Positions 29,899-33,704 of a stretch of DNA of 64,000 nucleotides are shown here, one piece after another. This DNA is from a virus, in IMG/VR virus record IMGVR_UViG_3300027704_000008, positions 1 through 64,000 of that record, one strand, 5' to 3'. The stretch's first letter is position 1. The number at the start of each line of letters is the position of its first letter. The notes beneath the pieces are model-generated. The model was not told where the DNA came from. It made no database searches and saw only the letters and a program-made list of their open reading frames with translations. The translations under genes were made by a program, and so were the position numbers.

Positions 29899-31911
29899 TT
29901 ACCGCAACTGCCTAGCAGGCTCGGCGTTATCGCGAGGGGACATTGGAGCCGCATTATCGCCACCGCCTCCTCCACCATTAATGGTGGTACTGTTGTTAGT
30001 GGTAGCTCCACCGGTCGCTACGTTCATGGTTGCTTGCTGTTTAGCGGCATTATTTACATCCTGCTCAGTAGCCAACATGCCTGACGCTCCTACCGCTTTA
30101 GGTGTCTGTGGAGGGACCATATCCATATCCATATCTGGAGACTCGAGCACTTGCGCGGACATCCGCGGAGCAGTCTTCTTTCTTCTTTCAAACTCTAAAA
30201 CCGCCAATCTGCCCAATGGACTCAGGGGGCTTCTATCGGCTTTAGATCTAAGTTCATCCATAGACATCGCGGCAACTCTTTGTTTTCTAGCCTCCTGACG
30301 CCTCTCGAAGGCTCGCGCGTGCTCCTCGCGAGCTTTGTCCCCCACGGCCTTCACTATTGCTGCATCCTCTGGGTTGGCAAAACCTCCAGCACCCATTACG
30401 CTAGAACCATCGTCACCAAGGTCTTGCCCGAAGGATTGCTGTTGAGACTGTGTCTCAACAGCGGCTGCAGCGGCGGCTTTGCCGGATACGGGGCTGTCCG
30501 CAATTATAGGAATGCCGTCATCTGTAAAACCCACGACATCAGCAACTGGATCCACAGAGGGGATGTCTTCTCCTGCCGCCCTTTCCTTCCTCTCCTCAGA
30601 CTTGTTCTCTGTGGGCGTCGCACCTGTTTTAATCACTTCTCTCGCTGCTTTTAATAGATCAGATTCCTTCCTTAAAAATGCCGTCCCATCCACCATGCCA
30701 TCTGCCTCAGGATATTCTCGCAGCACATCTGCCATCATGTACGCTGCCTCTTTCTCAGACAACTGCCCATCGAGAACACCGTTTTCTATCTCACTTATAA
30801 TGTCGTCGGCATCGCCCTCTCTCCTGGACTTAAATGTTGCTAACATCTCATCCGCTCGTTTAGAATCAAGTGTTCCGTCAGCCACAGCAGTTTCTATTTC
30901 AGCTTCGGTGTAAGTTTTGCCTCCGGGACCCACAGTATCCATGAGCGTTCGATCGTTGGTATCTGCCGAGAGCCTGCTCTGTTGATCTGTGGCTTCCGTC
31001 TCAAACCCAGCATCACTCAAATCAAAAACGTTGTCACCTCCCACCATTCTGTTAGCTTTGTTTATTGCCTTCATGGCACCCGTCATGAATCCTGCGAAGA
31101 ATTCCTTTATTTTAAATACCACTTCCAACACCCACCCTTCCAAATCCTTCATCATGACCTTGATGGCATCCTGAAAACTAAAGGAATCGAGTTCCTTTTC
31201 TAGATCGGTAAAACCAAACGCTCCAGCAAGCCACGATACTATACTTTTGATTATATCCAAGGGTATCCCAATAAGAAATTCCACCGCTTTCCCTAGCCCC
31301 CGCATGATAGCAGTGGTTACCCTGGTAGTCATGTCCTTACCTTCCGTTTCATTCCAACCTTCAAGTGCTCCTAGGATAAAGCCAATGGCGGCCAACACTG
31401 GAATCCATAATCTACTGACAATAGTAAGGCCTCGTACCAGAGCTCCTTTCAACGCCAGTATTGGTGCCGTGAAGGCCAAAGCAAATGCGGAAATAGTCGC
31501 CATTAGCGTTCGCCACAGCGCGGAGATACCGAGCAGCCCCAAGAGACCTTCCTTCTCCTTCTTTTTGTCCTTCTTGTTGGGTTTGGCTTTAAGTTTACCT
31601 TTATCTTCTTTTTCCTTTTCAGCATCTTCCTGAGCTTGAAACTTCCTCTGCTTGTCTTCCTCCTTTTTGTCATTAATCAAAAACGAAGTCAACTTAAATA
31701 TTGACTCGTCAATGGACATCAGGATATCAACCACAGAGTTTTGCATGGATACTTGTCTGTCGGTATTGGCACCTAGTCCTTCCAAATTACCACTGAACAA
31801 GGTTAACCGCTCGGCCATATCTGCGATCGAGATCGCTGACTCAGCAATACCGTCCGCTATACGGCTATATTGAGTGGAATCTAGTTCGACAGTTAGATCT
31901 TGTAGTGACAT
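29899..31911 (-). CDS. Tape-measure-like / gp29-type tail protein
   Basis: 670 aa. Starts SLQDLTVELDSTQYSRIADGIAES; a Lys/Glu-rich stretch (residues 80-120, KEEDKQRK ... KKDKKKEKEG) precedes two or three long hydrophobic helices (about 120-200: LWRTLMATISAFALAFTAPILAL, LWIPVLAAIGFILGAL) and the C-terminal half is Ala/Asp/Glu-rich and probably disordered, ending in a Gly/Asn-rich tail. Position after gp26 and its probable frameshift product fits the tape-measure slot. Length should set tail length. The last base of the stop is 2 nt from the terminator. Confidence 0.78.
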   Translation of the reverse strand: MSLQDLTVELDSTQYSRIADGIAESAISIADMAERLTLFSGNLEGLGANTDRQVSMQNSVVDILMSIDESIFKLTSFLINDKKEEDKQRKFQAQEDAEKEKEDKGKLKAKPNKKDKKKEKEGLLGLLGISALWRTLMATISAFALAFTAPILALKGALVRGLTIVSRLWIPVLAAIGFILGALEGWNETEGKDMTTRVTTAIMRGLGKAVEFLIGIPLDIIKSIVSWLAGAFGFTDLEKELDSFSFQDAIKVMMKDLEGWVLEVVFKIKEFFAGFMTGAMKAINKANRMVGGDNVFDLSDAGFETEATDQQSRLSADTNDRTLMDTVGPGGKTYTEAEIETAVADGTLDSKRADEMLATFKSRREGDADDIISEIENGVLDGQLSEKEAAYMMADVLREYPEADGMVDGTAFLRKESDLLKAAREVIKTGATPTENKSEERKERAAGEDIPSVDPVADVVGFTDDGIPIIADSPVSGKAAAAAAVETQSQQQSFGQDLGDDGSSVMGAGGFANPEDAAIVKAVGDKAREEHARAFERRQEARKQRVAAMSMDELRSKADRSPLSPLGRLAVLEFERRKKTAPRMSAQVLESPDMDMDMVPPQTPKAVGASGMLATEQDVNNAAKQQATMNVATGGATTNNSTTINGGGGGGDNAAPMSPRDNAEPARQLR

Positions 31912-31917
31912 GATACT

Positions 31918-32109
31918 TTATCCGCTATTATTTTTATTACGTTCGTTTTCTTCTTTTATATGTTGCACTAATAAGGCTATATACACCTCCCTTTCCCACG
32001 GTATCATATTGTTTAGTTCTGTCAAACTATACTTATGATGTTGCATCAGCAAAAAGTTTGTCTTATAATGGTTGACTAAACTTTCGTGAGAAAGGCATAT
32101 TAGAAAAAA
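31918..32109 (-). CDS. -1 frameshift extension of gp26 (tail-assembly chaperone)
   Basis: On the minus strand this frame is open from the slip site to TAA 31918-31920, about 62 codons. The reading after a -1 slip runs LICLSHESLVNHYKTNFLLM, then ... YSLTELNNMIPWEREVYIALL ... HIKEENERNKN. The IPWEREVYIALL-type motif is what T4-like phages place between gp26 and the tape measure. No good ribosome-binding site precedes the only in-frame ATG (LLM), so fusion to gp26 by frameshift is the simpler reading; a separate 42-aa protein is the alternative. Confidence 0.7.
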   Translation of the reverse strand, partial: FFLICLSHESLVNHYKTNFLLMQHHKYSLTELNNMIPWEREVYIALLVQHIKEENERNKNNSG

Positions 32110-32846
32110 TCAGTTAGGCCTTCTAAAACAATCGTTTGATCTTCACCACATTCAACACACTTATATTCTATGGGGTGGCTTAGTTTGGGTACATCTTGAA
32201 TAAAATCAATTATCATCTTTAGCTGAGTGGACTTTAAGTTGTTGAGCCATTCTTCTATATCTTCTTTTGACTCTTCATCAAAGGTGTATATGCTATCCTC
32301 ACTCTGGACAGATACTAAACACCTAGAAATCAGATCAAACATATCTTGTACCGCAATTGTAGCAGCGCCATCTGGTCTTGCTGCTTGTTTCTTGGTTATA
32401 CTGACACCATCTGAATACGATGGCCACCTCATATTTAAAGTATGATCGGGGGTAAGTTGTATTACGGTCGCTGCTGGGTCCACATCAATCGTGATAGACG
32501 ATATATCCACATCCACTTCAGTGAGACCTTTGCACCTCTCACCTTCAATCGCGTTTTGACACTTCAACCTTATAGAGGCAGTTTGTCCGACGCTACTTGC
32601 TCTTACCTGGGAAAATATATACTCAAAGTCAAACAAGGCTAGTTTGTCCACCACAAGAGTCTCTTGACAACACGCTTCCAAGGTACCTTTAATAGCGTCT
32701 AGCATAGACCCCTCATCGCCAGCCTCAATTGCCAATAACAATACTTTCTCTTCAGACACTAAGTATGGTCTAAAATGCAACACCTTGCCAGTAGAGGGTA
32801 CGGTTACTGCGTTATATGCTGTTTCATTAATTTTAGGTAAAGCCAT
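32100..32846 (-). CDS. gp26: gp26-like baseplate hub / tail chaperone subunit
   Basis: 248 aa, starting MALPKINETAYNAVTVPSTGK. This is the T4_baseplate family: VPSTGKxLxxRPYLVxEEKVLLLA, a KLALFDFEYIFSQVRASSVG core, paired Cys near the middle (KCQNAIEGERC) and CVECG near the C-terminus that could bind zinc. It precedes the tape measure, the position of tail chaperones. Its final codons are the slippery GAT TTT TTC TAA. A strong AAGGAG lies 7 nt before the ATG. Confidence 0.87.
   Translation of the reverse strand: MALPKINETAYNAVTVPSTGKVLHFRPYLVSEEKVLLLAIEAGDEGSMLDAIKGTLEACCQETLVVDKLALFDFEYIFSQVRASSVGQTASIRLKCQNAIEGERCKGLTEVDVDISSITIDVDPAATVIQLTPDHTLNMRWPSYSDGVSITKKQAARPDGAATIAVQDMFDLISRCLVSVQSEDSIYTFDEESKEDIEEWLNNLKSTQLKMIIDFIQDVPKLSHPIEYKCVECGEDQTIVLEGLTDFF
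32103..32109 (-). promoter_or_regulatory. T TTT TTC ribosomal slippage heptamer
   Basis: Read on the minus strand the last codons of gp26 are GAT TTT TTC TAA, giving X XXY YYZ = T TTT TTC immediately before the stop. A -1 slip avoids the stop and enters the open chaperone-like frame. Confidence 0.72.
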
Positions 32847-32873: not shown

Positions 32874-33704
32874 TTAAAACACATTGAAGTCATCAAGAAA
32901 GTCATCCACAACATCTGTAACGTTGTCCACCACATCTGTTATCGATGTCATTATCCCAGCCCAAAAAGATTCGATACCGGTTCCCTTATCTCCACCCTGA
33001 CTAACTTCTTCTCGGTCATTCCAGTTGGTGAACGACAGTTGAACACTCAATTCTACCATACCATCTAGTTCATTATTCAACTCAACTGATGCTATGGATG
33101 TGGGAAACGCTCCAACCAGGTTGACTGAGTACACAACGTCGTCGCCAGTAACAAAAGCCAGGTCAAGCTCTCCTGTTTTCAGAATATTACCTAAAGGACC
33201 AGGAAGGGTGGGTAGTCTGTTTACAATATTTGATGGAATCTTATCAAGTGTATCCCCAAAAAGATCTACTTTGTATATAGGAAGGCTGAATCCTTTTTGT
33301 AGTTGGCTGATCTGTACGGGGAGGGCATAATCACTGTGGTATCCAACTTCTCCGTTTGCGTAATCAACAGCTAGTCGTTGCCATGCATCGAAGTACTTGC
33401 GTATCTTATAGTTGTTCATTACAATGAATGTTAAAGTGATATCATCTACTTGGTATCCATATGCAACCTTTTGCGTTTGCATTCCAACTCGTCTCTCAAC
33501 CGTATTCAGCTGTCTGCCCGGTAACTGAGTAGCCTTACATAGAACATTAAGCTCTTCTGGAGCAAGGATGGGTACCCTAGCGAAGGCATCTTCCGTACTA
33601 TTAGACTTATATATTGTGGGCAGCTGGATGGCGTACAGATTCGACCGTGCCATTCCGTCGCTCTGAGTTATTAAAGATTTGAGCTGATCGACACTATAGT
33701 TCAT
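32874..33704 (-). CDS. gp54: Baseplate tail-tube initiator gp54 homologue
   Basis: 276 aa. ARSNLYAIQLP, CKATQLPGRQLNTVERRVG, KVAYGYQVDDITLTFIVMNNYKIRKYFDAWQ and the second-half ISQLQKG ... YKVDLFG show the tail-tube fold shared by gp19, gp48 and gp54. With gp48 encoded just across the divergent region, this is best assigned as gp54, which starts tube polymerisation. The end (TDVVDNVTDVVDDFLDDF) is repetitive and acidic. Its ATG overlaps the previous stop (TAATG). Confidence 0.75.
   Translation of the reverse strand: MNYSVDQLKSLITQSDGMARSNLYAIQLPTIYKSNSTEDAFARVPILAPEELNVLCKATQLPGRQLNTVERRVGMQTQKVAYGYQVDDITLTFIVMNNYKIRKYFDAWQRLAVDYANGEVGYHSDYALPVQISQLQKGFSLPIYKVDLFGDTLDKIPSNIVNRLPTLPGPLGNILKTGELDLAFVTGDDVVYSVNLVGAFPTSIASVELNNELDGMVELSVQLSFTNWNDREEVSQGGDKGTGIESFWAGIMTSITDVVDNVTDVVDDFLDDFNVF

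Follow-up and report, generated by a model that had tools for sequence, protein, structure and literature searches.

The gp26 locus

The stretch of viral DNA analysed here, called the window, is 64,000 nucleotides long (positions 1 to 64,000 of IMG/VR record IMGVR_UViG_3300027704_000008). Its genes include, in order, a tail tube gene, gp26, an open reading frame shifted by -1 relative to gp26, and a probable tape measure gene. The features discussed below are as follows.

32874..33704, minus strand: tail tube gene (gp19-like), upstream of gp26 and on the same strand (phrog_45 tail tube, 3.2e-33)
32100..32846, minus strand: gp26, 0 frame, 248 aa, the putative short form TAC-N (PF12322, phrog_150, AlphaFold)
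32115..32127, minus strand: position of the SD-like element (AGAAGG; Glu-Gly codons GAA GGC) 5' of the slip site, weak in the window phage
32103..32109, minus strand: slippery heptamer T TTT TTC, abutting the gp26 stop (sequence and homologous loci)
32102-32100, minus strand: gp26 stop TAA
31918..32103, minus strand: -1 extension (gp51, putative TAC-C), 61 codons and a stop (phrog_634, phrog_150 C-terminus, tblastn)
32047..32100, minus strand: ATG-free stretch of the -1 frame, from the gp26 stop to the first in-frame ATG (substitution pattern, start-codon scan)
32045..32085, minus strand: candidate downstream RNA hairpin (MFE, shuffle z)
31918-31920, minus strand: stop TAA of the -1 frame
29899..31911, minus strand: probable tape measure gene, 670 aa, downstream (weak tblastn match to phiM12)

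The 3' end of gp26 reads CTA ACT GAT TTT TTC TAA TATGCC on the minus strand. An earlier sequence-only reading had proposed a programmed -1 frameshift at this point. The gp26 ending it gave, GAT TTT TTC TAA, and all of its coordinates proved correct when the minus strand was read again. It had put the -1 frame at about 62 codons, open to the TAA at 31918-31920; we count 61, and the motif it named, IPWEREVYIALL, is present. After a slip, the -1 reading would run D-F-F-L-I-C-L-S-H-E-S-L-V-N-H-Y and onwards. Across the window, in-frame T TTT TTN occurs eight times in 88 mechanical ORFs of at least 100 aa (21,553 codons), and only the gp26 site has a -1 extension of at least 30 codons.

The next ORF starts at 31911. 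The naming of that ORF as the tape measure gene stands on a weak match only. Its 670-aa protein aligns with a tape-measure-like protein of phiM12 (28% over 138 aa, 3e-4, tblastn), and a Pfam search with it returned no hit. We regard it as probably the tape measure.

Homology of the two frames

Both parts are homologous to the T4-like gp26/gp51 family (PF12322, phrog_150/634). The gp26 protein matches Pfam family PF12322 T4_baseplate at 3.7e-50 and phrog_150, a baseplate hub family, at 3.2e-55. Searched by itself, the -1 frame hits phrog_634 (gp51, "baseplate hub assembly catalyst") at 3.6e-27, the C-terminus of phrog_150 (4.6e-06) and, weakly, that of phrog_23772. Proteins with both halves in a single frame are included in phrog_150. 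T4 gp51 aligns with this family over 13-280 of 282, spanning the N and C parts in one frame. A tblastn search with the -1 segment found 644 phage records, mainly cyanophages, and the matches mostly begin at query residue 1, right after the slip.

The window phage is uncultured, and its gp26 is at most 40% identical to the aligned sequences, two near-identical contigs excepted. A confident AlphaFold model of gp26 (pLDDT 92) has other phage baseplate hub proteins as its structural matches. Among PDB hits, the HK97 tail assembly chaperone 2OB9 had the top probability (0.63) and was not significant (E 1.0, 63 columns). A gp26 profile searched against the sequences of solved structures gave chance-level hits only.

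Conservation of the slip site

Homologous loci were gathered by protein similarity alone, with annotated isolates added. In 154 of 154 distinct loci, which share phylogeny so that the counts are not independent events, the gp51 segment is read in the -1 frame, and the overlap contains an in-frame T TTT TTN. The heptamer is TTTTTTC in 112 loci, TTTTTTT in 28, TTTTTTA in 11 and TTTTTTG in 3; one codon separates it from the stop in 127 and none in 23. Elsewhere in the gp26 genes of these homologues, T TTT TTN is found at 17 of 34,482 codon positions. The codon before the heptamer is variable (AGT, GAT, TCT, AAT, GCT). That codon nevertheless always ends in T, and the heptamer may close with any of the four bases and encode either FF or FL; it is thus the nucleotides of the heptamer that are conserved and not the peptide. 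The site is retained in the distant phages KVP40, ValKK3, phiM12, P10VF, Atu_ph04, Ah1, AS-yj, Mendera, PhiW-14 and SRB7757.

The alignment of homologues proposed in the sequence-only reading therefore finds the slip site conserved, and the case named there as contrary, a second frame that has its own good ribosome-binding site but no slip site before it, is absent from all 154 loci, which were found through second-frame similarity. Comparative evidence across many lineages supports the proposed slip site, the -1 fusion at the end of gp26 and the arrangement likened earlier to that of lambda G/GT.

The same frame relation without the canonical slip site is seen in relatives from the Ackermannviridae and in Vibrio phage K364. 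In the Ackermannviridae (L100, L101, L192-L209), a gp51-like segment follows gp26 directly in the -1 frame, and the junction is a conserved AUU UUC AUU UAA (one AUC variant) instead of T TTT TTN. A TAATG overlap is present in the Limestone-like members only. In K364 (L098), gp26 ends ACG CTT TTT GCG TAATG, and the second ORF overlaps the stop.

Initiation and coding constraint in the second frame

One alternative is that gp51 is an independent small gene, translated after gp26 termination from an internal start (TTG 32052 or ATG 32046). Many records, those of cyanophages in GenBank for example, annotate a separate CDS. A few relatives have an ATG 2-4 codons from the gp26 stop, with TAATG or TGATG in KVP40, P10VF and PhiW-14. 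Against this, 120 of the 154 loci have no gp51-frame ATG before codon 18-19, which lies within conserved sequence and mostly lacks an SD. Of the first ATGs, only 12% are preceded by an SD whose duplex reaches -4.5 kcal/mol. In the window, a TTG is present at 32052, and ahead of the conserved core the -1 frame has a single ATG, codon 19 (32046-32044), where SD pairing is absent (+0.5 kcal/mol).

Coding constraint also acts on the 15 codons that separate the first ATG from the gp26 stop. In nearest-neighbour comparisons within the family, substitutions at codon positions 1, 2 and 3 number 145, 127 and 402, and conserved columns are L (92%), H (90%), L (93%), N (96%) and F (94%). Sequence constrained in this way before the first ATG is expected to be read only by a ribosome already in that frame. 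The pairing energy agrees with the earlier claim that the internal ATG lacks a good ribosome-binding site. Homology and constraint reach up to the gp26 stop, 5' of any start codon, and this argues strongly that the second frame would not be initiated independently. A free gene would also leave the T TTT TTN of all 154 loci without a purpose. In view of the coding conservation 5' of any usual start, an independent gp51 was rejected, and we hold it very unlikely.

Termination-reinitiation, or coupled translation, would instead yield a separate second polypeptide in some lineages, the window included. TAATG or TGATG overlaps in Limestone-like Ackermannviridae, Vibrio phage K364, schizotequatroviruses and Rhizobium phages could be read this way. 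However, lineages with these overlaps keep the slip site too, except the Ackermannviridae and K364. The window junction reads TAATATG: it has an ATG, but in the wrong frame, and no start for the -1 frame. We consider this route to the second product extremely improbable.

That the second frame is the unprogrammed, decaying remnant of a fused ancestor, broken at a mutational hotspot, is scarcely credible: poly-T runs are prone to indels and a stop codon interrupts the -1 frame of the close relative L091, but the -1 relation and the heptamer are kept in 154 divergent loci and the extension is under purifying selection. In L091, a contig near-identical to the window, TGG has become TGA (PWERE to P*ERE; window 31998-31996), which truncates the extension. 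The change may be a polymorphism, a sequencing error or a defective variant.

Gene copy number and comparison with T4

Whole records were compared for the number of PF12322 genes. Two are present in T4, IME13 and GEC-3S, where the long gp51 is in a single frame, and one in each of the other 21 isolates checked. The 138.6-kb record from which the window comes, possibly incomplete, holds one PF12322 gene, gp26, and not the two of the T4 type. T4 gp26 covers PF12322 fully and has no extension; T4 gp51 has the extension. This pattern implies two ways of obtaining the short and long forms: a single gene that has a second frame, or a pair of genes.

As in the window, both T4 proteins belong to PF12322 and the same C-terminal extension is found, borne in one frame by T4 gp51. 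Unlike in the window, the short gp26 and the long gp51 of T4 are separate paralogous genes on opposite strands, and T4 gp26 ends GAG TTC TTT GAG, with no slip site. The earlier remark that T4 itself is not described as frameshifting agrees with this, since T4 has two separate genes instead.

A frameshift remains the preferred reading of the window locus. Given the sequence, the homology, the conservation, the lack of an alternative start and the single gene copy, gp26 and the -1 frame are very probably one gene, encoding TAC-N and, by a -1 slip, TAC-NC. Several observations speak against this reading: the weak SD-like element and modest hairpin of the window, the truncated extension in L091, the non-significant match to 2OB9, and the relatives that lack a canonical slip site.

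Signals around the slip site

Candidate stimulatory signals were measured against synonymous-codon shuffles. Upstream of the slip site, pairing to the anti-SD in relatives averages -6.0 kcal/mol versus -4.5 kcal/mol in the shuffles, which supports an SD-like stimulator in most of them, and the best anti-SD 8-mer begins 15 nt before the heptamer. The usual form is GAG GGN: the Glu codon before Gly at this site is GAG in 51 of 72 representatives versus 26% elsewhere. An SD-like stimulator is unsupported in the window itself, where the codons are GAA GGC and the pairing (-3.3 kcal/mol) is weaker than the synonymous expectation (-5.2 kcal/mol).

Downstream, the RNA of 14-codon windows placed 2-5 codons past the slip folds more stably than its synonymous shuffles (z of about -1.2 to -1.4 across 113 representatives); control regions of gp26 give z of -0.06 to -0.35. 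Because no helix is common to all, the downstream structure is lineage-specific at most. A universal pseudoknot or hairpin was rejected, the best recurrent helix being complete in 21 of 31 members of one subgroup and 5 of 64 of another. The stem that the earlier reading suggested looking for downstream of 32103 is present as a tendency of the family; the window hairpin is only moderately stable. This candidate hairpin, GAAAGUUU.GUC / GAC.AAACUUUU, begins about 17 nt past the heptamer and has an MFE of -9.3 to -10.3 kcal/mol (z -1.5 to -0.9 versus dinucleotide shuffles, window alone). Another, smaller fold is possible from about 8 nt past the heptamer (CUUUC-UCAC-GAAAG).

Very stable perfect or near-perfect hairpins lie just 3' of the slip site in S-PM2 (L004), L035 and L060. 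That of S-PM2 is GUUCUAUAAUAAU / AUUAUUAUAGAAC, and L060 folds to -24.8 kcal/mol.

In E. coli dnaX, a -1 frameshift occurs at A AAA AAG with an upstream SD-like stimulator. Most relatives resemble dnaX in having an SD-like GAGG about 9-13 nt before the heptamer and a downstream structure. The two systems have no common ancestry, and the element is weak in the window. We see an even chance that frameshifting T4-like TAC genes slip on a signal of three parts, as dnaX does: codon choice would hold an internal SD-like GAGG about 9-13 nt ahead of T TTT TTN, and a lineage-specific RNA structure would follow. In T4 and its close relatives two genes take the place of this signal, and the Ackermannviridae have a non-canonical junction.

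Proposed mechanism and relation to known systems

From these data we infer the slippage itself, its rate and the chaperone action. Most ribosomes would end at TAA 32100 and release the 248-aa short form (step 1). A minority would slip one base back on T TTT TTC, with both tRNA-Phe re-pairing on TTT TTT (step 2). The slipped ribosomes would then read 61 more codons, giving a long form of 309 residues with DFF-LICLSHES... at the join (step 3). The short form would be TAC-N and the long form TAC-NC, comparable to lambda gpG and gpGT. Both would bind the tape measure protein, probably the product of the next gene, and deliver it for tail-tube polymerisation (step 4). Layout and homology suggest that gp26 and the -1 product act as such a tail assembly chaperone pair.

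The -1 frameshift of the lambda G/GT tail assembly chaperone was reportedly described by Xu, Hendrix and Duda in 2004. Compared by layout, the proposed pair of the window resembles that of lambda: a -1 slip near the 3' end would yield a short and a long form directly 5' of what is, in the window, a probable tape measure gene. They differ in the slip site (G GGA AAG in lambda, T TTT TTC here), and the window phage is a T4-like myovirus.

In 2022, Vladimirov, Gautam and Davidson reportedly assigned the TAC genes in T4-like phages, which by our own reading are gp26/gp51. Two later papers cite that study as follows: some T4-like phages do not frameshift but have two genes, one short and one a long fusion (PRFect paper, PMC10885494), and T4-like TAC-N genes contain poly-T slip sequences (phage Adele paper, PMC12846349). 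Since T4-like TAC genes had reportedly been identified by 2022, the frameshifted chaperone is not a new strategy. The test of the SD-like stimulator may be an addition to that work. The locus links T4 gp26/gp51 to the strategy of lambda G/GT. It is, besides, a clean system for comparison: most lineages would produce the short and long pair by frameshifting, and T4 produces it from two paralogous genes.

Annotation of gp51

Our results suggest that the free-standing gp51 "baseplate hub assembly catalyst" in many records of cyanophages and other relatives is the latter part of a protein made by frameshifting. Annotation of gp51 is inconsistent, which is probably an artefact of the frameshift. 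It is annotated as a free gene in L001, L002, L003, L004 and L106, with internal and differing start codons, and left unannotated in L007, L107 and L097.
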